Assembly: GCF_001695855.1 (NCBI RefSeq) | Contig: NZ_MBSS01000012.1 | Coordinates: forward strand, 186,001-250,000 | Source: Ensifer sp. LC163 | GTDB lineage: Bacteria; Pseudomonadota; Alphaproteobacteria; Rhizobiales; Rhizobiaceae | Direction: 5' to 3' | Length of the DNA: 64,000 nt | Shown here: positions 8,632 to 22,731 of the stretch, in pieces | How the letters are laid out: the number at the start of each line of letters is the position of its first letter | Position numbering within the stretch: position 1 is the first letter of the stretch | Program-made: the position numbers and the translations under genes | Notes under the pieces: generated by a model | What the model saw: only the letters and a program-made list of their open reading frames with translations | The model's database searches: none | What the model was told of the DNA's origin: nothing

Positions 8632-9078
8632 ATGACTCGCAAGCTCGCCGCAACGCTTCTCGCTTCGCTTTCCCTTACCGCCATGGCGGCGCCTGCCGCC
8701 TCGGCTGCCGACTATCTCGGGACCTATCGCGACCAGCCGACATCCTATAGCGCGGGTGTCTGCGGCGATGCCTCGGTTCTCGGCTTCATCACCTCGCGGT
8801 TCGAATACAAGGCGGCGAACTATCTGCACGCCAATCTCTCGATCGCCGAGATCCGCAACATGGGCCAGAACCGGCTGGAACTGCGGGACTATACCCATCG
8901 GGTTGAGCGCGAGTATTGCCGCGCGACCGCCGTCATGACCGATGGCGATCAACGGCCGCTCTACTATCTCATCGAGCGCAACTGGGGCTTTGCCGGCATT
9001 GGCCGCAACATCGAGTTCTGCGTCGGTGGCCTCGACCCCTGGTATGTCTACGGCGCCTATTGCGCTTCGCTTCGCTGA
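8632..9078 (+). CDS. Small secreted protein of unknown function with four cysteines
   Basis: I do not recognise a named family. The 148-residue product has a clear signal peptide (MTRKLAATLLASLSL, ending in AASAAD), leaving about 124 residues in the periplasm. The mature part has four Cys, in GVCGD, REYCR, EFCVGG and AYCASLR, which could form two disulfides, and it is rich in Tyr and Arg. GGGAGACGCCC precedes the ATG as a ribosome-binding region. The next gene, an RNase T2 lipoprotein, starts 2 nt after the stop, so they are cotranscribed and both act outside the cytosol. Whether the two proteins work together is only a guess from that spacing. Confidence 0.72.
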   Translation: MTRKLAATLLASLSLTAMAAPAASAADYLGTYRDQPTSYSAGVCGDASVLGFITSRFEYKAANYLHANLSIAEIRNMGQNRLELRDYTHRVEREYCRATAVMTDGDQRPLYYLIERNWGFAGIGRNIEFCVGGLDPWYVYGAYCASLR

Positions 9079-9080
9079 CA

Positions 9081-9797
9081 ATGCCAGAGCATTACCCACA
9101 GCGCCGGCTGCTGCCGGCGCTTTTCTTTGCCCTGGCACTTGCCGGCTGCAGCGACGACGGCGCCGAGAAAAAGCCGCTGCCGCCAGCGTCGGACCGTGCA
9201 AAATCGGACGTCGTCCTACCCGTCGGCCAGGGCTTTGATTTCTACGTTCTCTCGCTCTCGTGGTCGCCGACCTGGTGCGACGACAACGATCCGTCCGGCA
9301 AGACCGGCCAGTGCAAGCTCGGCAGCAATCGCGGGCTGATCGTGCACGGCCTGTGGCCGCAGAATGACCGGGGCTATCCCGATTTCTGCCCGACGCGGCA
9401 ATCGGATCGCGTGCCGGAGGCGCTCGGCCGCCAATATCTCGATCTCATTCCGTCCATGGGGCTGATCGGCCATCAGTGGCGCAAGCATGGAACCTGCTCG
9501 GGCCTGAGCCAACAGGATTATTTCGCCGTCACCCGGGCGGCGCGCGAGCGCGTCGCGTTGCCGGCGGAACTCAGCGCATCACGTCGAGAAAACTCACTGT
9601 CCGTCAGCGCAATCGAGGCCGGGTTCGTGGCCAGAAATCCCGGCATGACGACAAACGCCGTCGCTGTTACCTGCGAGGGCAAGCGGCTGGAGGAAATCAG
9701 GATCTGCTTCGACAAGGCGCTGAATTTCCGCCCTTGCCCCGAGGTGGATCGCCAAGCCTGCCGAAGGGACACCGTGACGCTGCCACCGGCATCCTAG
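9081..9797 (+). CDS. RNase T2 family lipoprotein
   Basis: Starting at the ATG 2 nt after the previous stop gives 238 residues with a lipoprotein signal (hydrophobic core, then LAGC lipobox). Both catalytic segments of the T2 family are present: IVHGLWPQ (CAS I) and HQWRKHGTCSGL (CAS II), each with its catalytic His, plus the Lys of the second. Several Cys fit the family's disulfides. T2 enzymes cut single-stranded RNA through a 2',3'-cyclic phosphate. A lipid anchor would place this one in the inner or outer membrane facing the periplasm, like E. coli RNase I in location but tethered. The role could be nutrient scavenging of RNA. Confidence 0.88.
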   Translation: MPEHYPQRRLLPALFFALALAGCSDDGAEKKPLPPASDRAKSDVVLPVGQGFDFYVLSLSWSPTWCDDNDPSGKTGQCKLGSNRGLIVHGLWPQNDRGYPDFCPTRQSDRVPEALGRQYLDLIPSMGLIGHQWRKHGTCSGLSQQDYFAVTRAARERVALPAELSASRRENSLSVSAIEAGFVARNPGMTTNAVAVTCEGKRLEEIRICFDKALNFRPCPEVDRQACRRDTVTLPPAS

Positions 9798-9898
9798 ACC
9801 GATGCATGGGCCGACCGCATGTGGCTCGATATTATGAAACTGCGCCCGCTCTTCCGACATTCGCTTTGGAAGTCATGCGCGAAAGAGAAAGATGCTCG

Positions 9899-10489
9899 AT
9901 GAAAATACTTTACTCGCCATCGTCCCCCTACTCCAACAAGGTCCGCATGGCTGCGCACTATGCCGGGCTGTCGGCCGAAAGCGTCTTGACCGATACCAAC
10001 GCCAACTCGCCGGAACTCATCGGCAGCAATCCGCTCGGCAAGATCCCGACGCTGGTTACCGGCGACGGCAAGGCGATCTACGACAGCCGCACCATCATGC
10101 ATTTCATCGACCGGGAGACGAAGGGCAAGCTCTACCCGAAGAATGCCGGGAAGCGTTTGGATATCGAAATCTTCGAGGCGCTGTGCGACGGCATCTGCGA
10201 CAGCCTGCTGGCGATCGTCTACGAGAAGCGGTTCCATCCGCCGGAAAAGGTGCATCAGCCCTGGATCGACAGGCAGTGGGAAAAGGTCGAACGGAGCCTC
10301 GATCATCTGAATGAGAATCTGCCCAAGACGGGAGCCAAGCTGCATGCGGGGCATTTCGCGCTTGCAGCGCTGCTTCGCTACATCGAGCTGCGCTTCAGCG
10401 GCGAATGGCAACGCGGCCGTGCCAAGCTGAAGAACTGGCCGGCAAAATTCGAAAAGCACTTCCCGGATTATTCGAAATTCAAAGCATGA
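9899..10489 (+). CDS. Glutathione S-transferase family protein
   Basis: The ATG at 9899, preceded by GAAAGAGAAAG, gives 196 residues. MKILYSPSSPYSNKVR is a thioredoxin-fold N-terminus with Ser/Tyr in the place of the catalytic residue. NPLGKIPTLV follows with the cis-proline that binds glutathione, and IYDSRTIMHFID corresponds to the conserved D/E-S-x-x-I segment. The rest is the helical C-terminal domain, which shows the FALAALLRYIELRF pattern of bacterial GSTs. The gene stands alone between the RNase T2 gene (102 bp upstream) and a bidirectional terminator. Substrate unknown; bacterial GSTs of this type are usually involved in detoxification. Confidence 0.85.
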   Translation: MKILYSPSSPYSNKVRMAAHYAGLSAESVLTDTNANSPELIGSNPLGKIPTLVTGDGKAIYDSRTIMHFIDRETKGKLYPKNAGKRLDIEIFEALCDGICDSLLAIVYEKRFHPPEKVHQPWIDRQWEKVERSLDHLNENLPKTGAKLHAGHFALAALLRYIELRFSGEWQRGRAKLKNWPAKFEKHFPDYSKFKA

Positions 10490-10490
10490 A

Positions 10491-10516
10491 AAAAGGCCGG
10501 GTCTCCCCGGCCTTTT
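10491..10516. terminator. Bidirectional rho-independent terminator between the GST gene and ropB
   Basis: AAAAGGCCGGG (10491-10501) pairs perfectly with CCCGGCCTTTT (10506-10516) across a TCTC loop, an 11-bp stem with A-tract and T-tract flanks on both sides. It sits in the gap between two convergent genes, so it can end transcripts from both. Confidence 0.9.
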
Positions 10517-10538
10517 CCTTGATCAGGCAGGTTGCCGA

Positions 10539-11177
10539 TCAGAACTTTACGCCCATACCGACGCGGACGCTGTGCTCATCGTAACCGGAAGACACGTTGG
10601 TGCCACCAACGTTGAAGTCCTTCGAGCCGTAGTCCGTGTAACGGTATTCGACGCGTGCCGTGATGTTGTCGGTGACGAAGGTTTCCGCACCGGCACCAGC
10701 CGTCCAGCCGATCATGGTGTTCTTGTCGGAACCAGCCGGGGTCGATGCCTTGGCCTGACCAACGGCGAGACCAGCCGTACCGTAGAGCAGGACCGGGTTC
10801 AGATCGACACCGACGCGAGCGCGCAGCGAGCCGTTGACGCCCTGCTTCATGCGCAGGTCACCACGGGTGGAATCCTGGCCGGAGTAGCCGACGTCGGCTT
10901 CACCGCCGTAAACGATCTGGCCGCTCTGCATGTTGTAGCCGCCGTAAAGACCGCCACCGAAACCAGCCGAAGTGGCGTCGCCGGTCGCATCAGCCTGGCC
11001 ATGGTGCCAATCAGCGGTACCACCGACATAGGCGCCCGACCAGTTCTTGACTGCCGGTTCGGTGTACTCGGCTGCGGGAGCTGCCGGAACTTCGTCGATC
11101 GCGTCTGCAGCCTGGGCGGCCTGGAAGGCGATGAGGGATACGGCCGAAGCCATGAGGGTGGTGGTGAGCGTACGCAT
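10539..11177 (-). CDS. ropB: Outer-membrane beta-barrel porin-like protein (RopB/Omp25 family)
   Basis: The 212-residue protein has a 23-residue signal peptide (MRTLTTTLMASAVSL, ending AQAAD), a short Pro/Ala linker (EVPAAPAAEY), and a barrel with alternating strands. Key features are WSGAYVGG, GLYGGYNMQ, the tight turns between strands, ARVEYRYTDYG, and a C-terminal HSVRVGMGVKF ending in Phe, the BAM recognition signal. This fits the Omp25/Omp31 family of Rhizobiales, called RopB in rhizobia, abundant eight-stranded envelope proteins. GGAG 8 nt upstream of the ATG is a strong ribosome-binding site. The preceding DNA is unusually AT-rich. Several paralogues usually exist per genome, so the symbol is tentative. 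Confidence 0.85.
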   Translation of the reverse strand: MRTLTTTLMASAVSLIAFQAAQAADAIDEVPAAPAAEYTEPAVKNWSGAYVGGTADWHHGQADATGDATSAGFGGGLYGGYNMQSGQIVYGGEADVGYSGQDSTRGDLRMKQGVNGSLRARVGVDLNPVLLYGTAGLAVGQAKASTPAGSDKNTMIGWTAGAGAETFVTDNITARVEYRYTDYGSKDFNVGGTNVSSGYDEHSVRVGMGVKF

Positions 11178-11542
11178 AAATATTCTCCTTTACGAACCGA
11201 TGCCCCGAGGTTTGGGATCCCTCAATGAAACATCGGACAACTTTCAATTAACCCGCCCGGTTGAGCTGAAATTGGCCAGCAAATGAGGATTCACAAGAGC
11301 CAAAATGTGAAATTTTGGTGGCACAATCACGTCCAAAATTTGATGTTGCTTTCACGCCACAGGGATTTTATTAACCATCTTTCAAGATTAACGAAAGATA
11401 TACTATATAACTTCAAAATAATACAATTTACGCGAATTCCATTAATTTTTGCGAAATGAATCGTCAGGGAGAGTTTCAGGGCGGCGTTTCTTGCCTATAT
11501 CTTCGTCCGCGTGCGCGAAGATTCGAAAAGCGGGATGAAACG
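11178..11542. promoter_or_regulatory. AT-rich divergent regulatory region between ropB and the FolM-like gene
   Basis: This gap is strikingly AT-rich compared with the rest of the window, especially 11281-11455. It contains an inverted repeat CCAAAAT-gtgaa-ATTTTGG at 11300-11318 and a further CCAAAATT at 11333-11340. Two TTAAC half-sites, one TTAACCAT, lie in 11370-11395 and resemble CtrA half-sites. It must hold the ropB promoter on the minus strand and the promoter for the reductase-uvrC operon on the plus strand. The regulators are not identified. AT-rich promoters of this kind are typical targets of Ros/MucR proteins in rhizobia, which is an inference. Confidence 0.55.
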
Positions 11543-12307
11543 TTGAAGAAAGCACTGAAGGCGGCACTCGTAACCGGTGGCGCCAAACGGATCGGCAAGG
11601 CTATAGTTGAGGACCTCGCGGCCCATGGCTTCGCGGTCGCAATCCATGCCAATGGCTCGCTTGATGAGGCGAAGTCTATGGCGGCCTCATTGACGGAAAG
11701 AGGAGTCGGCGCCGTTGCAGTGAAGGCCGATCTGACCGACACGCAGGAAACCGCGGCACTGATGGCGCAGGTCAATGAGGCGCTCGGTCCGATCGACCTG
11801 ATCGTCAACAATGCCTCGCTGTTCAAGAAGGATAGCCTCGACGCTTTCGACGAAACCGTATGGGATCGCCATTTCGCGTTGCACGTGAAAGCCCCGTCCC
11901 TGCTCGCTCGCGATTTTGCCCGCCAATTGCCGCGCGGCGTCTCGGGCCTCGTCATCAATGTGATCGACCAGCGCGTCTGGTCTCCAAACCCGCGCTTTTA
12001 TTCCTATATGTTATCCAAGTCCGCGCTGTGGACGGCAACACAAACGATGGCTCAGGCACTTGCGCCGGATATTCGCGTCAACGGCATCGGCCCAGGGCCA
12101 ACATTGCCGAACGAGCGGCAGGATCCTCGCGATTTCCAGGCACAGGTCGATGCACTTATCCTCAGGCGCGGTCCGGCGCTCGCCGAATTCGGGCGGACGA
12201 TCCGCTTCCTTTTCGGCACACCGTCGATTACCGGACAGATGATCGCGCTGGACGGCGGCCAGCACCTCGCCTGGGAGACGCCCGACATCAGGGAGATAGT
12301 GGAATGA
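11543..12307 (+). CDS. SDR-family reductase, FolM/pteridine reductase-like
   Basis: The product has TGGAKRIG, the TGxxxRxG form of the Rossmann dinucleotide loop that marks pteridine reductases and FolM. NNASLF and a YMLSK catalytic Tyr/Lys pair follow, and the C-terminus has IALDGGQHL. Such enzymes reduce dihydromonapterin or dihydrofolate with NADPH. The start is uncertain. An in-frame ATG at 11456 adds 29 Arg-rich residues unlike the family and has no ribosome-binding site. I prefer the TTG at 11543 (254 residues), preceded by GGGA and leading straight into [12 protein letters not shown]. The stop overlaps the uvrC start (ATGA), so the two are cotranscribed. Confidence 0.8.
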
Positions 12308-14328
12308 ACGGACGCGTGCCGACCGACGGCGGCATCCTCTATGACGGCAATGATGCCGAAGACGACGACGACCTGATCGAGGCGCCCGAAAGTGCGCCCG
12401 CAGGCCCGGCTATCGAATGGGCCGAGAATCGCAATGAGGTCGAGGGGCTCAAAGGCGCCGAATTGATCCAGGCCTTCGTGAAACGGCTTCCGAACGGCCC
12501 CGGCGTCTATCGCATGTTCAACGACGCCGGCGACGTCCTTTATGTCGGCAAGGCGCGCAGCCTGAAGAAGCGCGTCGGCAACTACGCCCAGGGCCGCGGC
12601 CACTCCAACCGCATTTCGCGGATGATTCGCGAAACCGCGAACATGGAGTTCGTCACCACCCGCACCGAGATCGAGGCGCTTCTGCTCGAAGCCAACCTGA
12701 TCAAGCGCCTTCGGCCGCGCTTCAACGTGCTTCTGCGTGACGACAAATCCTTTCCCTATATTCTGGTCACCGGCGACAGCCGTGCACCCGCCCTTTACAA
12801 ACATCGCGGCGCGCGCAGCCGAAAGGGCGATTATTTCGGCCCCTTCGCCTCGGCCGGCGCCGTCGGGCGCACGATCAATTCGCTGCAGCGCGCATTCCTT
12901 TTAAGAACCTGCACCGACAGCGTCTTCGAGACGCGCACGCGTCCCTGTCTTCTGCATCAGATCAAGCGCTGTTCGGCGCCCTGCACGGGCGAAATCAGCA
13001 ATGACGGCTATGCCGAGCTGGTGCGCGAAGCCAAGGACTTCCTCTCCGGCAAGAGCCAGGCGGTGAAGGCGACGATCGCGGCGGCAATGGGCGAGGCCTC
13101 GGAAAACCTCGACTTCGAACGCGCGGCACTTTATCGCGACCGCCTTGCCGCGCTCAGCCACGTGCAGAGCCACCAGGGCATTAATCCGGCCGGCGTCGAA
13201 GAGGCCGACGTCTTTGCGATCCACCACGAAGGCGGCATCTCCTGCATCCAGGTGTTCTTCTTCCGCACCGGACAGAACTGGGGCAACCGCGCCTATTTCC
13301 CGAAGGCAGACCCGTCACTGCCGACCGCGGAAGTGCTTTCGGCGTTTCTCGCGCAGTTCTACGACGACAGGCCCTGTCCGCGGCAGATCTTGCTGTGCGA
13401 GGCGGTCGAGGAACAGGAACTGCTTGGCCAGGCGCTCAGCGAAAAGTCCGGTTACAAGGTGTCGATCCAGGTGCCGCAACGCGGCGAGAAGAAGGACCTT
13501 GTCGACCATGCGCTCGCCAACGCCCGCGAGGCGCACGGCCGCAAGCTGGCGGAAACCGCATCGCAGTCGCGACTGCTCGAAGGCTTTGCAGAAACGTTCA
13601 AGCTTGAGCGCGCACCACGCCGGATCGAGATCTACGACAACTCGCACATCATGGGCACCAATGCCGTCGGCGGCATGGTGGTCGCCGGCCCCGAAGGCTT
13701 CGTCAAAGGCCAGTACCGCAAGTTCAACATCAAATCGACCGACATCACGCCCGGCGACGACTTCGGCATGATGCGCGAGGTGATGACCCGTCGCTTCTCG
13801 CGCCTGCTCAAGGAAGAAGGCAAGCCGGACCGGACAGTCGAGATCGCCGACGACGCCGCCTTCCCGGCCTGGCCTGACGTTATCCTGATCGACGGCGGCC
13901 AGGGACAGATGACCGCCGTGCGCGCGATCCTTAGAGAACTTGATGTCGAGGATTGCGTGACGGCGATCGGTGTTGCCAAGGGCGTCGACCGCGATGCCGG
14001 GCGCGAGCGTTTCTTTGCGCTCGGGCGCGACAGCTTCACGCTGCCGCCGCGGGACCCGGTGCTCTATTTCATCCAGCGCCTGCGCGACGAAGCGCACCGT
14101 TTTGCCATCGGTTCGCACCGCGCCCGACGCAAGAAGGAGATGGTCAAGAACCCACTGGACGAGATCGCCGGCGTCGGGCCGACGCGTAAACGCGCTCTGC
14201 TCACCCATTTCGGTACCGCCAAGGCCGTTTCCCGCGCCGGGATGAACGACCTGATGGCGGTCAACGGCATTTCCGAGGCCGTCGCACGGCTGGTCTACGA
14301 GCATTTCCATGAGGACGCGGCAAAATGA
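12304..14328 (+). CDS. uvrC: Excinuclease ABC subunit C
   Basis: The ATG at 12304 overlaps the upstream stop and gives 674 residues. After an acidic N-terminal stretch ([13 protein letters not shown]) comes the GIY-YIG nuclease domain, recognisable in GPGVYRMF and [14 protein letters not shown], which makes the 3' incision. A central cysteine-containing region, a UVR motif ([15 protein letters not shown]) that contacts UvrB, an RNase H-like endonuclease domain ([20 protein letters not shown] and LIDGGQGQ), and a C-terminal helix-hairpin-helix pair ([17 protein letters not shown]) follow. This is the full nucleotide-excision repair nuclease. Length is within the family range. Confidence 0.97.
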
Positions 14329-14333
14329 CCCTT

Positions 14334-14437
14334 GCAGCGCCGCGCGTCGAAGATGACGCGCAAGGGACGCTGTAAAGGTTCAAACTTGCTGCATAATTTC
14401 GCCGTTAAATCGATGCCGATTTAAGGAATTACGCGAT
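14334..14437 (+). repeat. Rhizobial mosaic palindromic repeat, copy 1 (inverted orientation)
   Basis: GCGCCGCGCGTCGAAGATGA and the following GCGCAAGGGACGCTGTAAAG form one palindromic block (14334-14377). It is the reverse complement of blocks at 29522-29568 and 39667-39712. A second block, with TTAAATCGATGCCGATTTAA at 14405-14424 and flanking AATTTCG/GGAATTACG, matches the second palindrome seen at the other two loci. It lies right after the uvrC stop and may act as its transcript end. Confidence 0.75.
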
Positions 14438-14558
14438 GGCAATTCACCCGACGTTCAGGTGAGATGCGCCAATTATGACAACCTTCGCACAATGATTTGT
14501 TGACCTGAGGGCCGCAAAGTCATTCTGTACCTCCGAGGAAGACAGAGAACCCGAATCC

Positions 14559-15146
14559 ATGCCCAAGCCCGTCGCCTACAGCATCCCCAACCTGCTCACC
14601 TATTTCCGAATCCTGATCGTGCCGCTGATCGTGCTTTGCTTCTTCATCGAAGGCCGGCTGCACAGTTCGGATTTCGCACGCTGGACGGCGGTCATTCTCT
14701 TTGCCATCGCCTCGATCACCGACTTCTTTGACGGCTATCTCGCCCGCATCTGGAATCAGACCTCGAACATCGGCAAGATGCTCGACCCGATTGCCGACAA
14801 GCTCTTGGTCGCCTCGATCCTGCTGCTCGTCGCCGCTGACCAGACGATTGCCGGCTGGTCGATCTGGGCCGCGATCATCATCCTGTGCCGTGAAATCCTG
14901 GTATCGGGCCTGCGCGAGTATCTGGCGGCACTCAAGGTCAGCGTTCCCGTCACCCGTATCGCCAAGTGGAAGACGACGATCCAGATGGTGGCGATCGTCT
15001 TCCTGCTCGCCGGCCCCGCTGGCGACAAGATCCTGCCCTATACGACAGAGGCCGGTATCGTATTGCTATGGATCGCCGCGGCGATCACGCTCTACAGCGG
15101 CTATGACTATTTCCGCGCCGGCCTGAAGCACGTGGTCAACGAATGA
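14559..15146 (+). CDS. pgsA: CDP-diacylglycerol-glycerol-3-phosphate 3-phosphatidyltransferase
   Basis: The 195-residue integral membrane enzyme carries the CDP-alcohol phosphotransferase signature. It is seen as TDFFDGYLAR, then a Gly, then MLDPIADK, with the Asp residues that bind the metal and CDP moiety. It makes phosphatidylglycerol phosphate, the precursor of phosphatidylglycerol and cardiolipin, and so feeds substrate to LpiA. N-terminal SIPNLLTYFRILIVPL is the usual first helix of PgsA. The moaD ATG overlaps its stop by 4 nt, so pgsA, moaD and moaE form an operon. GAGGAAGACAG upstream of the ATG supplies the ribosome-binding site. Confidence 0.95.
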   Translation: MPKPVAYSIPNLLTYFRILIVPLIVLCFFIEGRLHSSDFARWTAVILFAIASITDFFDGYLARIWNQTSNIGKMLDPIADKLLVASILLLVAADQTIAGWSIWAAIIILCREILVSGLREYLAALKVSVPVTRIAKWKTTIQMVAIVFLLAGPAGDKILPYTTEAGIVLLWIAAAITLYSGYDYFRAGLKHVVNE

Positions 15147-15403
15147 GCACCGTCAATCTCGTCTATTTCTCCTGGGTGCGCGAACGCATCGGCAAGGGTG
15201 AGGAAACGCTGGAGGTTCCGGCGGCCGTCGTCACCATTGCCGACCTGCTTGCGCATCTGAAGACGCTGGGGGAGGAATACGAGACGGCGCTCGAGCACCA
15301 GAACGTCATCCGCGCGGCGATCAACCAGGAACATGTCGAGCATGGCGAACCGATCGCCGGTGCGCGCGAGATCGCCCTCTTCCCGCCGATGACCGGTGGC
15401 TGA
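15143..15403 (+). CDS. moaD: Molybdopterin synthase small subunit (MoaD)
   Basis: The 86-residue ubiquitin-fold protein ends FPPMTGG. The terminal Gly-Gly is thiocarboxylated by MoeB and donates sulfur to cyclic pyranopterin monophosphate. VYFSWVRERIGKGEETLEVP and the VRAAINQEHV-like segment fit the MoaD pattern. It overlaps the pgsA stop by 4 nt. moaE starts 4 nt after its stop, which fits translational coupling of the two synthase subunits. The product would serve molybdoenzymes such as the oxidoreductase at 5507-7624. Confidence 0.93.
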   Translation: MSTVNLVYFSWVRERIGKGEETLEVPAAVVTIADLLAHLKTLGEEYETALEHQNVIRAAINQEHVEHGEPIAGAREIALFPPMTGG

Positions 15404-15407
15404 CACC

Positions 15408-15872
15408 ATGGGCGCGCCCGTCACCGTGCGTGTGCAGCGCGAGGATTTCGACCTTTCGGCCGAGGTTTCCAAGCTTTCGTCCGACCGCCCCGACATTGGG
15501 GCGGTCGTGACGTTTTCGGGCCTCTGCCGCGACGAAGCGGGCATGCTTGCCGCTCTCGAACTAGAGCATTACCCCGGGATGGCCGAGGCCGAGATCGAAC
15601 GCATCTGCAACTTGGCGGTCGAACGCTTCGGGCTGCAGGCAGCAACGGCGATCCATCGCTACGGCAGGATCATTCCCGGCGAGAACATCGTGCTCGTGGT
15701 CACCGCTTCGCCCCATCGCCAGGCAGCCTTCGATGGCGCCAGCTTCATCATGGACTTCCTCAAGACATCTGCGCCCTTCTGGAAGAAGGAACACTTGACC
15801 GATGGCACGGCTGGCAGCTGGGTCAGCGCCAAGGATGCCGACGACACGGCGCGTGATCGCTGGAAGCGCTGA
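15408..15872 (+). CDS. moaE: Molybdopterin synthase large subunit (MoaE)
   Basis: I take the ATG at 15408 (154 residues). A GTG at 15396 in frame would overlap moaD. Family landmarks are GAVVTFSGLCRDE, LELEHYPGMAEAEIERI, HRYGRIIPGENIV, VVTASPHRQAAF and FWKKEHLTDG. The last contains the Lys residues that bind precursor Z and take part in sulfur transfer. MoaE forms the active site of molybdopterin synthase with the MoaD C-terminus inserted. Length matches family members. The gene is the last of the pgsA-moaD-moaE operon and faces the livH-like gene across 28 bp. Confidence 0.95.
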   Translation: MGAPVTVRVQREDFDLSAEVSKLSSDRPDIGAVVTFSGLCRDEAGMLAALELEHYPGMAEAEIERICNLAVERFGLQAATAIHRYGRIIPGENIVLVVTASPHRQAAFDGASFIMDFLKTSAPFWKKEHLTDGTAGSWVSAKDADDTARDRWKR

Positions 15873-15900
15873 CACGCGGGATCGATGCTCCACGCGCGGA

Positions 15901-16797
15901 TTACGGGATGACTTTTTCCTGTCGCGTGACCGCAAGCACGATGACGAGGAAGCCGAAGATCGCAAAATCCCGCCAGAGCATCGGGCCATAGGCCCCCCAG
16001 AGTGTTTCGAGAAGGCCGATGGCGGCTGCGCCGAGCGCGGCATAAAGCGGCGATGTCTGGCCGCCGATCGCGGCGATAAACAGCACTTTGACCCCGAACG
16101 TGAGCCCGGTGCCGAAATCCATGTTGCCATAGTAGGACGCAGCCAGGATACCGCAGCAGGCGGCGATCAGCGATGCGGCGCCATAGGCGACGATATAGAC
16201 ACGGGCCGCATCGATGCCGCAAAGGGCGGCCGCGCCACGATCCTCCGACACCGCCCGCCACGACCGTCCGGCGCCGCTATGCGTCAGAAACCAGTGACCG
16301 GCCGCCACCAGCGCCACCATCAACAGCGTGTTGAGCAACTGGATCACCGTCAGCGTCACCGGGAATTTGGGGTCGGGCCAGAAGACGATGTTGCCGTTCA
16401 GAAACGGCGGCAGCCACAGGCTCTTCGTTTCGGAGGCCAGCCGCGCCGTTTCCATCAGCACTAGCAGGGTCCCGAGCGACGCGACGACGACAGTGTTGGC
16501 TGACGAGAACGCGAGCGGGCGCATCACGTAACGCCCGGCGACAAGCCCTGCCCCAACACCAAGCGTCAGACCGGCGGCGGCGCCAAGGCCGAGCGCTGCC
16601 GGCAGCAGCAGCCACAGCCGGTTCCAGCCGAAATCCGCAAACAGCACGAACATCTGGCCGGAGAAGGCAAAGAGGGCGCCGTAGGTGAGATCGGCCCGGC
16701 GGGTCACGGCGAAGGCGATGGCATAGCCGAAGGCCAGCGCCGCATAGAGTGCGGCGATCGGGACGGCATTGGCGATCTGCTGCAGGAAATAGAGCAT
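15901..16797 (-). CDS. Branched-chain amino acid ABC transporter permease (LivH-type), orphan
   Basis: From the ATG at 16797 the product has 298 residues with about eight hydrophobic helices. Signatures are MLYFLQQIANAVPIAALYAAL, TRRADLTYGALFAFSGQM (the LivH N-terminal pattern) and the EAA-like segment IDAARVYIVAYGAASLIAAC. An earlier in-frame ATG at 16842 would add 15 residues. LivH works with LivM, two ATPases and a periplasmic binding protein, none of which is next to it, so it is an orphan here. The divergent CGNR gene lies 67 bp away and may control it, judging only by position. Confidence 0.82.
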   Translation of the reverse strand: MLYFLQQIANAVPIAALYAALAFGYAIAFAVTRRADLTYGALFAFSGQMFVLFADFGWNRLWLLLPAALGLGAAAGLTLGVGAGLVAGRYVMRPLAFSSANTVVVASLGTLLVLMETARLASETKSLWLPPFLNGNIVFWPDPKFPVTLTVIQLLNTLLMVALVAAGHWFLTHSGAGRSWRAVSEDRGAAALCGIDAARVYIVAYGAASLIAACCGILAASYYGNMDFGTGLTFGVKVLFIAAIGGQTSPLYAALGAAAIGLLETLWGAYGPMLWRDFAIFGFLVIVLAVTRQEKVIP

Positions 16798-16864
16798 GGC
16801 GCATCCGGAGCGTGACAACATCAATATAACTGGTAAAATCATTTTTGCCAGTTAGGAATAGCTC

Positions 16865-17425
16865 ATGACCTTCACCTGGACCGCACATCGATTTGCCGGC
16901 GGCGCGCTGGCGCTGGATGTCGCCAACTCCGTCATTCTGCGCTTTGATGCCGCAAGGCGTATTGATCGCTTCGCCGACGTTGCAGCACTCGACGCCTTTG
17001 CCGACGCCGCCAACCGGTTCGGCGCCGAAAGCACACGTTTTGGCACGCTTTCACCCGTTGCCGAGCAGAACCGGGCAGGACTTTTGAGGTTGCGCGAGGC
17101 GACGGATCGGCATTTTCGGGCACAGGCGGCTGCCGAGCATCGGGCGGACCTGATGGCCGATCTGCTGGAGGCAATCGCCGCAGTGCTGCGCAGCACCGGC
17201 AATGGCGGACGCGCCATCGCGCTCGACACGGCAACGGCGCATTCCGCACTCAGCCTCACCGCCAGTCCCGAACCCGATCGATTGAAGATCTGCCCGAATT
17301 GCGGCTGGCTGTTTCTGGACAAGAGCCGCAACCGCAGCCGGACCTGGTGCGACATGGCGGTCTGCGGCAACCGCAGCAAGGCCAAGCGCCACTATCATCG
17401 CAGCAAGGAGGAGGCCCAGTCATGA
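16865..17425 (+). CDS. CGNR zinc-finger / ABATE-domain protein, putative regulator
   Basis: The 186-residue protein has the ABATE layout. An N-terminal ligand-binding-like domain begins with FAGGALALDVANSV. The C-terminal CGNR zinc finger reads CPNCGWLF, then WCDMAVCGNRSKAKRHY, with two Cys pairs for one zinc and the CGNR motif itself. Such proteins are predicted stress-responsive transcription regulators. It is divergent from the livH-like permease and its stop overlaps the start of a lipoprotein gene (ATGA). One of these neighbours is the probable target. No ligand is known for the family. Confidence 0.85.
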   Translation: MTFTWTAHRFAGGALALDVANSVILRFDAARRIDRFADVAALDAFADAANRFGAESTRFGTLSPVAEQNRAGLLRLREATDRHFRAQAAAEHRADLMADLLEAIAAVLRSTGNGGRAIALDTATAHSALSLTASPEPDRLKICPNCGWLFLDKSRNRSRTWCDMAVCGNRSKAKRHYHRSKEEAQS

Positions 17426-17931
17426 CGAGGATGATTGCAACGCTTGCGGCGATGATGGCGGCGATGCTGATGGCGGGCTGCCAGCGGGAGACCGGCCCCG
17501 ATCCGCTGAAGTTGACCGGCAAGATGTTCGTCTTCAACTATCGGCTCGCCTACGCGGCCTACATAATCACGCTCAGCAAGCTCGAACCGGTACCCGAGGG
17601 AAGCATCGTTATTGCGACCTTCGAGAACCCCGCCGGGGGCGAGCCGCTGACCTTGACGCGCAAGCTCTTTCCAAAGCTCGACAGAGTGGTGCTGGAAAGT
17701 CCTGATTTGACCTGCGTGAAAAAGGAAAGGCCCTATGCGGTGACGATCGAGGTGAAGGGACCTGCCGGCGAAACGCTGCAGACACTGGAGACCACCGTCA
17801 CCTCCGATATCGACCAAGATATCCTGCCGGCCAAGCCACTTGTCGAAGGGCCCGCCTACCACAAGAATCCGGAGGTCTTCTGGGGAGGCAAGGCTCCGGA
17901 GCGTTTTGAAACCGCGCGCTGCGCGACATGA
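17422..17931 (+). CDS. Putative lipoprotein of unknown function
   Basis: The ATG at 17422 overlaps the CGNR stop and gives 169 residues. MTRMIATLAAMMAAML followed by MAGC is a lipoprotein signal with lipobox, so the product is membrane-anchored. The mature part has segments such as FNYRLAYAAYIITLSK and VIATFENPAGGEPL and predicted beta strands. Two Cys, LTCVKK and ARCAT, could form a disulfide. I do not recognise a family. Its translational coupling to a CGNR regulator suggests a shared response. The stop codon is 4 nt from the ndk terminator hairpin. Confidence 0.7.
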   Translation: MTRMIATLAAMMAAMLMAGCQRETGPDPLKLTGKMFVFNYRLAYAAYIITLSKLEPVPEGSIVIATFENPAGGEPLTLTRKLFPKLDRVVLESPDLTCVKKERPYAVTIEVKGPAGETLQTLETTVTSDIDQDILPAKPLVEGPAYHKNPEVFWGGKAPERFETARCAT

Positions 17932-17934
17932 AAA

Positions 17935-17958
17935 AGCCGGAGCGTTTCCGCTCCGGCT
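17935..17958 (-). terminator. Rho-independent terminator of ndk
   Basis: AGCCGGAGCG (17935-17944) pairs with CGCTCCGGCT (17949-17958) over a TTTC loop, a perfect 10-bp GC-rich stem. Read on the minus strand it is followed by five T, as needed to end the ndk transcript. On the plus strand there is no T-tract, so it is a weaker stop for the lipoprotein gene. Confidence 0.85.
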
Positions 17959-18005
17959 CAATCGAATCAATTCAAGCCGTTACGGCCCAAAACGCAGAAC
18001 TTGAA

Positions 18006-18428
18006 TCAGCCGACGATTTCGGTGCCGGAGAACCAGTATGCGATTTCTTCGGCAGCCGTTTCCGGAGCATCCGAACCGTGGACCGAGTTTTCGCCGATCG
18101 AAAGCGCGTGAACCTTGCGGATCGTGCCTTCGTCAGCGTTTGCCGGATTGGTGGCGCCCATGATTTCGCGGTTCTTGGCGATGGCGTTTTCGCCTTCGAG
18201 AACCTGAACGATGGTCGGGCCGGAGGACATGGACTCGACGAGTTCGCCGAAGAACGGACGTTCCTTGTGAACAGCGTAGAAGCCTTCAGCTTCGCGGCGG
18301 CTCATCCAGACGCGCCTGGAAGCGACGACGCGCAGGCCGGCGTCTTCGAGCATCTTGGTGATGGCGCCGGTCAGGTTACGGTTCGTTGCGTCCGGCTTGA
18401 TCATCGAAAAGGTACGTTCAATCGCCAT
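18006..18428 (-). CDS. ndk: Nucleoside diphosphate kinase
   Basis: The 140-residue protein starts [19 protein letters not shown], the standard NDK opening (TFSMIKPD). It carries [12 protein letters not shown] and the active-site segment [18 protein letters not shown], where the His before Gly is phosphorylated and passes phosphate between NTPs and NDPs. Length is typical of bacterial NDKs. It is monocistronic with its own terminator. The upstream gap to the GST gene is about 100 bp and should hold its promoter. Confidence 0.97.
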
Positions 18429-19362: not shown

Positions 19363-19875
19363 ATGCTCGATCATTTTCGCATGTTCGCCGATTACAACAA
19401 CTGGGCCAACCGCCGGCTCTATGCGGCAGCGGCAGAACTTACGGAAAGAGATCTGAGGCAGAGCAAGGGCGCCTTCTTCGGCTCGGTGCTTGCGACGCTC
19501 AATCATATCCTCGCCGCGGATCGCATCTGGATGAAGCGCTTTACCGGCGAAGGCGACGCGCCGACGGCACTGGATGCGACGCTCCACGACGATCTCGCCA
19601 GCCTTGCCATTGCACGCGAGCGGGAAGATGCGCGGATGATCGCCTGGATCGACGGCCTCGATGATGCGCGGCTTGCAGCCACCTTCACCTACACGCCCCT
19701 CAGTACGCCGGTGAGCATCACGCAAAAGCTCGGACCGACGCTGGCCCACGTCTTCAACCACCAGACCCACCATCGCGGCCAGGCGCATGCGACGCTGACG
19801 GCCCTTGGCCGCCCGTCAATTGTGCTGGATCTCGCGTTCTTTCTGTGGGCCGAGGGAGAGAAGTGGGCGAGCTAG
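19363..19875 (+). CDS. DinB-family four-helix protein
   Basis: The 170-residue protein fits the DinB/YfiT fold. The N-terminal helix is MLDHFRMFADYNNWANRRLY, a conserved His follows in LATLNHILAADRIWM, and a C-terminal pair is in FNHQTHHRGQAHATL. Together these are the usual three-His metal site of DinB proteins. Despite the name, most members are uncharacterised and some are thiol-dependent S-transferases. Its last 60 nt overlap the 3' end of the convergent adenylation-acyltransferase gene, an uncommon arrangement here. AGGAGAAACAG upstream of the ATG is a good ribosome-binding site. Confidence 0.87.
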   Translation: MLDHFRMFADYNNWANRRLYAAAAELTERDLRQSKGAFFGSVLATLNHILAADRIWMKRFTGEGDAPTALDATLHDDLASLAIAREREDARMIAWIDGLDDARLAATFTYTPLSTPVSITQKLGPTLAHVFNHQTHHRGQAHATLTALGRPSIVLDLAFFLWAEGEKWAS

Positions 19876-22482
19876 CGCCGCCCACCGAGCGATCGGCGGC
19901 AGATGATCGAGCGACAGCCCGGCTTTCTGCCTTCCGTTCGCAGCCATTTTGAGCAAGTGGCGTTGCGCCAGCCAGGCGGCAAGGCCAAGTCCGATGCCGC
20001 CCGCGATCGACACCGTGGAGAAGAGCACGGTTGGCAGATGCGCCTGCAGCGGCGCCATCAACAGTTCCGGGACAAAACGGTGCAGGATGTAGATATGGAA
20101 ACCGGCGGCCGATAGCGGCAGCACGACTTGTGCCGCCCAGCGTGGAACGCGGACGCGCGGCGCGTAGACGAGAGCGACGAGCACGGCGATCAACAGCAGA
20201 TACTTGATCTTCGTGCCGATCCAAACGCCCTCGTAAAGGCCGAAGAACAGGAACGCGCCGGTTCCGGCTGCCACCAGCAGCAATCGCTGCCCATGCGTTT
20301 CGGCGATCGCCGCGCACCACCCGATCACAGCGAGATAGAAGATCCACGGCAAAGTGAAGATCTGCCGATTGCCGATCGACCACAGCATCGGCAGCGCCAG
20401 CCGGGCGACCAGCGCCACGCCGAGCAGCAGCATACCCGTTGCAAAGGGGTGTCGAGCCGCAAACCGCCGGAAGCGCGGGATCGCAAACAGCGACACGAAG
20501 ACCAGCATCATCTGGCAATAGGCTTCGATGAACCAGTAGAGGTAGGGCACCATGCCGCGGGTCTCCGGATCGGCAAACCCGAAATTGCCGACGAGGAAGA
20601 CGGAGGCCCAGGGGACCTCGCCCCAAACCGCAGCATAGGCGCCGACGATGAGATAATAGGGCACGAGGATCTGGGTAAGCGGTCGCAGAATAGCAAAGCC
20701 ACCACCGGCCAGAAGCTGCCCCATCTGGAACCGGGCGAGGCTGAAACCGGCAAGGATGACCATGGCAGCCGACCCGCCCGGCAGCGGCCACAAGGTCTCA
20801 TGGTGAAGAACGACGAGCAGTATCGCCAAGGCACGGATGATGAGATCCATTCCGATCCGTGTCGTCGTCGCGTCCCGCCTTTCCAGCGCCGCAAGCGTTG
20901 CGATCGGCATGGCCTCCCACAGTTCCGGCGCTTGCCCGAGCGCCTTTTCGAGACCGATCGAGAGCTGCACGAAACGCAACGAATCACCGCCGAGCGAGAG
21001 GAAACTATCCTCGGGCTTCACCCGTGCGGGATAGAACACCTGTCGGAAAAGGCTTTCGATGCCTTCACGATCGCTGCCGCCGGCGGCGATCGCCTGCTTT
21101 GCGGCAAGGTTCAGCGCGCTGTAATCGACTTTGCCTGACGGCAATCTCGGGATTTCCGGCAGGCGCGTGGCCCTGATATGGGCGAGTGTCAGGCCGCTCG
21201 CAGCAACAAGCAGGCGGCGAACATCCTCGGGTCGGCCCTCCCCCTGAAAAAAGGCATGCAGCCCGTCGTCATCGCCGACGATCGCCGCCACCAGACCGCG
21301 TTGCTCCAAAGCCTGCTCAAGGGCATCGTGGCCGATGCGCAGGCCAGCGATCTTGGACATGCGCTTCATGCGCCCGACGACGCGGAAAAGACCATCGGCT
21401 TCGCGGACCGCCAGGTCGCCCGTACGCAGTTCGTCAAGGTCTGCCCCCCGGGCCAGGTCCTGTCGCGACGAGGCGTAGCCCATCATCACATTGGGGCCGC
21501 GATAGACGAGTTCGCCGACGATACCGGCACCGGCAACCGCTCGCCCCTGCTCGTCCTCGATCGACAACGCGCCTCCGGGAATGGCGATGCCGATCCGGTC
21601 TTCGTTGCCCTCGAGCCGAGCCGGCGGCACATAGGCGATGCGGGCCGTCGCTTCGGTCTGGCCGTACATGACGAAGAAGGCGGCGCCCCGGGCGCGAAGA
21701 TGCTCGTCATAGACACGAACGCGCTCCGGCGCCAGACGTCCGCCGGCAACCGTCATGAAACGTAAGTGCGGGAACGCGCGATTGCGAAACCCGACCTTTT
21801 CCAGGAGCTCATAGGAATAGGGCACACCGGAAAGATTGGTGCAGCCGCTGGCGGCGAGACCGTCAAGGAACCCGGGGTCAAGGATGGAGCCGTTGGGGAT
21901 AAAAAGGCTGGCGCCGACGCTCAGATGGGCATTCAGCACCGAAAGTCCGTAGGAGTAATGGAGCGGCAGGATCAGGCAGGCGCAATCGTCGGCGCCGAGC
22001 TCCAGATACGCGGCAATCGAGCGGGCGTTCGCCGAAATGTTGGTGGTAGAAAGCCGCACCGCCTTGCCGCAACCAGTGCTGCCGGAGGTCGACAGCAACA
22101 GGCCAAGGTCCGGATGCAGCGGTTTATCGCTGCACTCCAGATGTTCCGTTCGCCAGCGGCCGTCCATCCGGCGATAGGCACAGTCCGGCTCGAACATGTC
22201 GGTCCAGGCCACGGTACCGGCGCCGCGCGGCGCCTGCATGGCAACCACATGTCCGGCCCTCAGTGCCGCAAGATAGGCAATGATTGCATGTTCGGAAGGC
22301 TCGGGCTCGAGCGTTACCAGCGCGCGGGTGCGCGGAAAAAGTGTCGCCTGGCGATCGACCCTTTCATGCAATTCGCGATAGGTCACGAGACGCTGGCCGG
22401 GAAGAACCAGAGCGGGACGCTCGCCCCACGCCGCCAGATCCGCAATGAAGGAAGGGGGTATGGTCAAACCGTCGCACTGCAT
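19816..22482 (-). CDS. Adenylation domain - carrier protein - acyltransferase-3 membrane fusion
   Basis: The 888-residue polypeptide joins three domains. Residues 1-455 are an AMP-forming adenylation domain: STSGSTGCGK (131-140), YGQTEAT (273-279), RTGD (353-356), GRMKRMSKIAGLRIG (370-384), and SGKVD with catalytic Lys451. Residues 470-535 are a carrier domain with LGGDSL, Ser501 being the phosphopantetheine site. Residues 545-845 are an integral-membrane acyltransferase-3 domain with Arg550 and His560-His561 in the typical first-helix position. The predicted chemistry is activation of an acid, thioester loading, then transfer to an acceptor in or across the membrane. No condensation domain is present. 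Substrate and acceptor are unknown. It is monocistronic, and its 3' end overlaps the DinB-like gene. Confidence 0.85.
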   Translation of the reverse strand: MQCDGLTIPPSFIADLAAWGERPALVLPGQRLVTYRELHERVDRQATLFPRTRALVTLEPEPSEHAIIAYLAALRAGHVVAMQAPRGAGTVAWTDMFEPDCAYRRMDGRWRTEHLECSDKPLHPDLGLLLSTSGSTGCGKAVRLSTTNISANARSIAAYLELGADDCACLILPLHYSYGLSVLNAHLSVGASLFIPNGSILDPGFLDGLAASGCTNLSGVPYSYELLEKVGFRNRAFPHLRFMTVAGGRLAPERVRVYDEHLRARGAAFFVMYGQTEATARIAYVPPARLEGNEDRIGIAIPGGALSIEDEQGRAVAGAGIVGELVYRGPNVMMGYASSRQDLARGADLDELRTGDLAVREADGLFRVVGRMKRMSKIAGLRIGHDALEQALEQRGLVAAIVGDDDGLHAFFQGEGRPEDVRRLLVAASGLTLAHIRATRLPEIPRLPSGKVDYSALNLAAKQAIAAGGSDREGIESLFRQVFYPARVKPEDSFLSLGGDSLRFVQLSIGLEKALGQAPELWEAMPIATLAALERRDATTTRIGMDLIIRALAILLVVLHHETLWPLPGGSAAMVILAGFSLARFQMGQLLAGGGFAILRPLTQILVPYYLIVGAYAAVWGEVPWASVFLVGNFGFADPETRGMVPYLYWFIEAYCQMMLVFVSLFAIPRFRRFAARHPFATGMLLLGVALVARLALPMLWSIGNRQIFTLPWIFYLAVIGWCAAIAETHGQRLLLVAAGTGAFLFFGLYEGVWIGTKIKYLLLIAVLVALVYAPRVRVPRWAAQVVLPLSAAGFHIYILHRFVPELLMAPLQAHLPTVLFSTVSIAGGIGLGLAAWLAQRHLLKMAANGRQKAGLSLDHLPPIARWAALARPLLSLGPQKEREIQHN

Positions 22483-22731
22483 TCGAGCCTCCCTCCCAAT
22501 TTAGCAAGGCGGCATATAATTCCTGACAAGCTCCGTCAACTATAAACATGAATTAAAACAGCAGCTTTCAACGCTCCTGCTCCAACCGGTTGCACCGCCT
22601 TCCCCTCCGGTGGGATTTCGGCAACCATACCGGGCAGATCTTGTGTTGCGGCGGGTATCTTCAGACTCCCTTAAACGCCGCGCCGCCATAGTGTTTTCGG
22701 ATCCCATACAGGCATCGAGGACGACCACGGA

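Follow-up and report, generated by a model that had tools for sequence, protein, structure and literature searches.

A fused adenylation–carrier–acyltransferase membrane protein of soil bacteria with a likely link to iron

What does a bacterium gain from a single polypeptide that appears able to activate an acid, hold it on a carrier and pass it on at the membrane? The question is raised by one gene in a 64,000-nucleotide stretch of the Ensifer sp. LC163 genome (contig NZ_MBSS01000012.1, positions 186,001 to 250,000; hereafter the window), whose product joins an adenylation (A) domain, a peptidyl carrier protein (PCP) domain and a membrane acyltransferase-3 (AT3) domain. A reading of the letters without database searches (the sequence-only reading) had taken this fusion for a possible envelope modifier resembling the Dlt system. 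We conclude that the fusion has a likely link to iron, and with confidence barely above even we favour the explanation that it is an iron-starvation-induced membrane enzyme working with FbpABC-type ferric uptake. This explanation draws on the domains, the invariant catalytic residues, the operator patterns and, in some lineages, the transporter linkage, all of which are supported by sequence comparison, and further on one published expression profile of a gene assigned by position. Papers are cited by PMC number, for the passages at issue, and loci outside the window by our own handles (L numbers). A literature search among openly licensed papers found none on the A-PCP-AT3 architecture.

Domains, catalytic residues and likely chemistry

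The gene and its three parts are laid out as follows.

19816..22482, minus strand: A-PCP-AT3 fusion gene, 888 amino acids, a single open frame read from 22482 to 19816
21085..22482, minus strand: A domain, residues 1–466, holding Lys451 and Ser177 (Pfam and alignments)
20863..21084, minus strand: PCP domain, about residues 467–540, with Ser501 within GGDSL (Pfam and alignment)
19930..20862, minus strand: AT3 domain, about residues 541–851, with Arg550 and His561 (Pfam matches of relatives and alignment)

The domain order that the sequence-only reading had given for this chain is real, and the Pfam check that it proposed has now been run. In the window protein AMP-binding (136.5 bits) and PP-binding (23.3 bits) lie above the Pfam cut-offs, and Acyl_transf_3 (PF01757) reaches 15.7 bits against a cut-off of 31. 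Two of six further relatives pass that cut-off (L184, 35.1 bits; L185, 39.3 bits); L183, L188 and L180 fall below it (29.6, 25.7 and 16.2 bits), and L182 has no listed match. At L172 (3650–6350) the system occurs in an unfused form, A-PCP being encoded by one gene and AT3 by a second that overlaps it, and the separate AT3 gene scores 47.3 bits to PF01757 and 97.8% to the fusion family in hhalign. Among 17 aligned members, matches with E ≤ 1 cover A and PCP in all 17 and AT3 in 16. The window protein would be insufficient by itself, but because relatives pass the cut-off and the split gene matches, AT3 is a fair assignment for the family. AT3 proteins have an R-X10-H pair and about ten membrane segments, and the window protein has Arg550, His561 and ten hydrophobic segments between residues 541 and 836.

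The residues expected of such an enzyme are conserved. In an alignment of 47 fused members, Lys451 and Ser501, both singled out by the sequence-only reading, are invariant, and Arg550 is Arg in 46 and Lys in one. That reading had paired Arg550 with His560, which is His in just 22 of the 47; the pair was off by one, since His561 is His in every member. The A domain, the catalytic Lys and the PCP Ser are those of an A-PCP unit of the non-ribosomal peptide synthetase (NRPS) type. Condensation and thioesterase domains, which had not been seen in the letters either, are absent from the Pfam listing of the window protein (three families, all shown). The activate-carry-transfer logic and the one-chain fusion therefore stand, and from its domains the fusion likely carries out this chemistry.

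No phosphopantetheinyl transferase gene was noticed adjoining the fusion; two ACPS-family matches lie elsewhere in the window's genome, so a dedicated enzyme would be unneeded. The same genome also holds an NRPS-type A-PCP protein of 649 amino acids (L203, 718–2667; G000:C2), whose contig has an ACPS-family match some 13 kb from it, and the two are perhaps a separate NRPS locus.

As to the acid, an ordinary alpha-amino acid, one of the options put forward earlier, now appears unlikely. Ser177 aligns with the FDxS Asp of NRPS A domains, both from the window's own genome and from a second genome of its genus group, and with an Asp of VinN; the column, placed by these alignments rather than by one to DltA, is Ser in 34, Cys in 11 and Ala in 2 of the 47 fused members. 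This Asp binds the alpha-amino group in GrsA and DltA (PMC11253843), and its replacement throughout the family is what argues against an alpha-amino acid. McyG activates Phe without it (PMC11253843), however, so the missing Asp falls short of proof.

The best Protein Data Bank (PDB) matches are VinN and the oxalyl- and malonyl-CoA synthetases. We rejected a dicarboxylate ligase: a shared second-carboxylate contact was not demonstrated, and a dicarboxylate substrate is therefore not claimed. Also rejected was an exosortase-type ligase; TIGR03098, the acyl-CoA ligase of exosortase A systems, is the best NCBIfam match of the A domain, but it is limited to that domain and, at 143.9 bits against a cut-off of 592, far too low. 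Transfer of 3-hydroxybutanoyl groups to exopolysaccharide, which is reported to bear this group in Rhizobium leguminosarum, was rejected too, as the surroundings of the gene gave it no support.

The same chemistry could serve an envelope modifier of the Dlt or Alm kind, which would place an acyl or aminoacyl group on lipopolysaccharide, a glycan or a lipid to serve the envelope in general, iron control being incidental. DltA, DltC and DltB have the same three activities as the fusion, namely ATP-dependent activation, a carrier thioester and acyl transfer at the membrane; AT3 proteins usually acylate glycans; and polysaccharide clusters hold three stand-alone relatives of the A domain, each accompanied by a carrier protein and two by LuxE/LuxC-like genes as well. 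DltB, however, is of the MBOAT type, and Pfam gives no MBOAT match in the window protein or its relatives, which have AT3 instead. The AlmEFG system of Vibrio cholerae, for which we know of no iron linkage, also combines an adenylation enzyme, a carrier and an acyltransferase acting on an envelope acceptor. It differs in being made of separate proteins, in using glycine and in its LPLAT-type transferase (PMC3783018). The Dlt proteins are likewise separate, use D-Ala and have the alpha-amino-binding Asp (PMC11253843), whereas the fusion is one chain in an iron setting and lacks that Asp in all 47 members. In the annotated plasmid regions read, the fused form has no polysaccharide gene cluster as a neighbour, and an envelope modifier of this kind would leave two unrelated kinds of iron box and the repeated linkage to a ferric transporter (both below) unexplained. 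We consider it distinctly unlikely. The Dlt-like reading thus caught the chemistry in outline and missed the iron setting, to which the operator patterns and the adjacency of fbpABC point.

Iron-box patterns and expression

The case for a link to iron begins in the promoter.

22524..22538, minus strand: RirA operator-like site TGACGGAGCTTGTCA (TGA-N9-TCA); its first base lies 56 bases ahead of the ATG, and a promoter-like TTGAC element overlaps it

The operator of the rhizobial iron regulator RirA is TGA-N9-TCA (PMC6386902, PMC8822346), and the window site fits this iron-responsive operator (IRO) box near the promoter. Searching from −250 to +120 at 74 loci, we found the pattern at 62. Once the ten of the 73 named loci that are not Hyphomicrobiales (eight Leisingera-type, Balneatrix and Dongia) are excluded, it lies at −28 to −58 in 61 of the remaining 63. 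The background in the searched loci is 602 sites in 1,479,883 bases, or about 0.9% per 21-base stretch, and when 18 promoters were shuffled, 0.25 were expected to hold the pattern; all 18 do. A further 23 loci were fetched, of which eight duplicated named loci; after L170 (start uncertain), L171 (weak AT3) and L172 (split genes) had been dropped from the 15 non-duplicates, six of the 12 homologues left had the pattern. Leisingera-type loci have AATTGACAAAATTAGTAAATT instead, common to six of the eight. Upstream of hemP, the genome of the window has the same kind of site, TTGACTTCATTACTCA. In Sinorhizobium fredii, chromatin immunoprecipitation (ChIP) identified the hmuP region as a RirA target (PMC8822346).

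Actinobacterial members have a second type of iron-box pattern, unrelated to that of RirA. In all 11 actinobacterial records (matches with E up to 1e-80; weak or partial plasmid matches such as those of R. jostii RHA1 and P. phenanthrenivorans stand outside this set), a DtxR/IdeR-like box lies at −30 to −67 and agrees at 13–15 of 19 bases. It is the best match in a span that begins 300 bases before the first start and ends 30 bases after it, and per promoter between 0 and 7 of 500 shuffles were equally good. The 11 records are related and so amount to fewer than 11 independent cases.

Expression can be followed in a model strain, Sinorhizobium meliloti, where fusion, DinB, GST and ndk follow one another without a break. 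Given that ndk is SMc00595 (PMC2912261), the fusion is SMc00592 by position. This gene, listed as a 'hypothetical, transmembrane protein' in an array study of fadD-related swarming, has M values of −0.44, 1.47, 1.30 and −0.23, close to those of hmuV, hmuT and exbB, and rises together with hmu, fhu and exb genes (PMC2848241); the table with these values is the one place where the main text of that paper names it. The fusion thus resembles the RirA targets hmuP and exbBD in the type of operator pattern and in its S. meliloti expression pattern (PMC2848241), but those genes encode parts of uptake systems, whereas the fusion, a putative RirA target, would be a biosynthetic or modifying enzyme. In the window, the fusion shares the 60 bases of its 3′ end (19816–19875) with the convergent DinB gene, and such an overlap, of varying length, recurs in the five Ensifer/Sinorhizobium loci compared.

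The array study also suggests another use for the enzyme, since SMc00592 belongs to a 36-gene set that changes on swarming agar (PMC2848241): low iron might induce an acylated lipid or surfactant for swarming or biofilm, with no direct part in iron capture. Up to 17 of the 36 genes are iron genes, however, so iron may account for the presence of SMc00592 in the set, and a surface-behaviour role would leave the FbpABC linkage unexplained. We regard it as very improbable.

Ferric transporter genes and a proposed role

Genes for the ferric transporter FbpABC adjoin the fusion in seven of the 73 named loci (FbpC matches below 45% and FbpB matches below 30% identity being excluded from this count), in three arrangements.

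L064, L067, L070, L071: fbpCAB divergent from the fusion
L065, L078: fbpCAB upstream of the fusion, in the same direction
L104 (Devosia): fbpCAB downstream of the fusion, six bases between; fusion frame interrupted near its start

Pararhizobium A13 (L180) shows the divergent order again, with a transporter that its record labels 'Fe(3+) ABC transporter'. In the Mycobacteriales, genes for a binding protein, a permease and an ATPase stand beside the fusion in nine of nine records read, preceding it in Mycolicibacterium and coming after it in Rhodococcus, and gene overlaps of 4 bp occur in M. crocinum and R. fascians. The binding protein of a rhizobial locus (L065) has 1y9u as its nearest PDB entry (E 5e-139), and that of an actinobacterial one (L182) has SfuA, 1xvy (E 7.6e-136); by these comparisons the neighbouring proteins belong to two different ferric-binding subfamilies. 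The earlier statement that the gene stands alone is right for the window, where an fbpA homologue (58% identity) lies on the same contig of the genome but far from the fusion, and wrong for the part of the family in which fbpABC adjoins. A MauE-type redox membrane gene also recurs near the fusion (L165, L167 and L201), accompanied at L165 and L167 by a glutaredoxin gene, and by eye a frame at L067 (3498–4352) resembles it.

The iron boxes and the FbpABC linkage would also suit a small diffusible siderophore-like compound, made by joining the acyl group to a soluble or exported acceptor, whose ferric complex would enter via FbpABC. NRPS siderophore synthetases have an A-PCP unit under iron control, and NRPS A-PCP chains are among the PDB matches; but the Pfam scan of the fusion protein found no condensation or release domain of the siderophore kind, and the fusion has a membrane AT3 instead, with ten membrane segments that suit transfer at the membrane. 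In the annotated plasmid regions read, neither a TonB receptor nor a siderophore synthase nor a labelled siderophore exporter lies beside the fusion. Chrome azurol S (CAS) activity was lacking in S. fredii HH103 and in its rirA mutant (PMC6386902), and the gene was found in strain USDA 205 (L051). A siderophore-like product is, in our view, unlikely.

The explanation that we favour instead places the enzyme in the service of FbpABC. Transporters of this type handle periplasmic Fe(III), whose delivery is often unclear in bacteria that have no detectable siderophore. At low iron the promoter would be freed of its repressor, which would be RirA in rhizobia and a protein of the DtxR/IdeR type in actinobacteria. 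The A domain would activate a carboxylic acid, probably no ordinary alpha-amino acid, and load it onto the fused PCP; from the PCP thioester, AT3 would then hand the acyl group on to an acceptor located at the inner membrane or beyond it. The resulting acyl conjugate, whether bound to the membrane or surface or small and exported, would help to bring Fe(III) to FbpA. In this scheme we infer direct repression, the passing of the acyl group from PCP to its acceptor, an acid other than an amino acid and the part that the product plays in iron delivery. A more specific form, conceivable although we would not expect it, is an envelope-bound iron trap, in which a metal-binding acyl group would be attached, outside the inner membrane, to a glycan or lipid from which FbpABC would draw off the Fe(III); this would be iron capture by neither a secreted siderophore nor the theft of a foreign one, and common to Proteobacteria and Actinomycetota. 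That high-affinity uptake systems still await discovery is suggested in the S. fredii HH103 study itself (PMC6386902). The fusion family, which has iron-box patterns in two phyla and adjoins fbpABC in some lineages of each, offers a concrete candidate for Fe(III) delivery and may point to an unrecognised step in iron collection by soil bacteria, one that S. meliloti would share.

Several observations weigh against this explanation. The operator pattern is missing between −250 and +120 at L042 and L080, as well as in Balneatrix, Dongia and L036; it is also missing in six of the 12 further homologues, five of which keep TTGAC. The main weakness is that the window's genome has TTGAC-N8-TCA at 270 places, and the backward pattern at 67, so the pattern by itself marks no target; TTGAC resembles a −35 element, so its conservation may partly be that of the promoter. 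RirA ChIP-seq in S. fredii CCBAU45436 gave ten peaks, five of them with the palindrome, and the fusion gene is not among the peaks named in the relevant text (PMC8822346). Nor is fbpABC adjacent to the fusion in most rhizobial copies, that of the window among them: it is missing there in 66 of the 73 named loci, in all 15 non-duplicate new loci and in seven of the eight alphaproteobacterial plasmid regions viewed, and likewise in both Micrococcaceae records.

Spread of the family and related loci

The fusion is patchily distributed. A full-length copy is present in all 16 genomes of the window's genus group (the window's own and 15 others) and in a genome of another family (G046); the closest named match is Ensifer adhaerens SD006. 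In the sampled genomes, an AT3 match occurs in 29 of 297 of the family (three of them weak), five of 385 of the class and nine of 398 of the phylum, which led us to reject a general rhizobial gene. The scan of named genomes gave 73 loci, from Sinorhizobium/Ensifer, Rhizobium, Mesorhizobium, Devosia, Leisingera, Balneatrix, Dongia and a few unplaced isolates. In 66 of them the three parts are nearly whole in one frame; the long frame of Dongia (L109) is three residues short of the whole-frame rule, and the frame is interrupted or shortened at L080, L093, L104, L105, L106 and L107. Plasmid records, most of whose listed rows are annotated 'AMP-binding protein', add Rhodococcus, Mycolicibacterium, Pseudarthrobacter, Arthrobacter, Paracoccus and others.

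The phylogeny that the sequence-only reading had called for bears on whether these fusions belong together. In a tree of 53 A domains, the 47 fused members cluster as one group with moderate support (92/82), the split form of L172 stands next to them (97/95) and the actinobacterial members form one branch (100/99). By this tree the fusions are one family across Alphaproteobacteria, one gammaproteobacterium and Actinomycetota. Another A-PCP-AT3 protein (L117) falls outside the group on a very long branch; at this locus (8951–18074) it has genes for MBOAT, FkbH-like and FMN dehydrogenase proteins nearby.

Stand-alone relatives of the A domain have surroundings of their own. One (L037, 3505–14914) belongs to a sugar-modification cluster that also has LuxE, LuxC, carrier-like protein, FabA-like and thiamine pyrophosphate (TPP)-enzyme genes. 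Others lie beside carrier proteins in polysaccharide clusters of Deinococcus (L186) and Parabacteroides (L189), of which the first has LuxE/LuxC-type genes and the second has none. On plasmid pRLb2 of R. leguminosarum (L187), a relative with 36% identity is found near a TonB-dependent siderophore receptor. Among the records with the fusion, CP090106.1 (L181), 3.7 Mb long and labelled pSymB of S. meliloti Ak57, has uvrC, pgsA and ndk and looks chromosomal.

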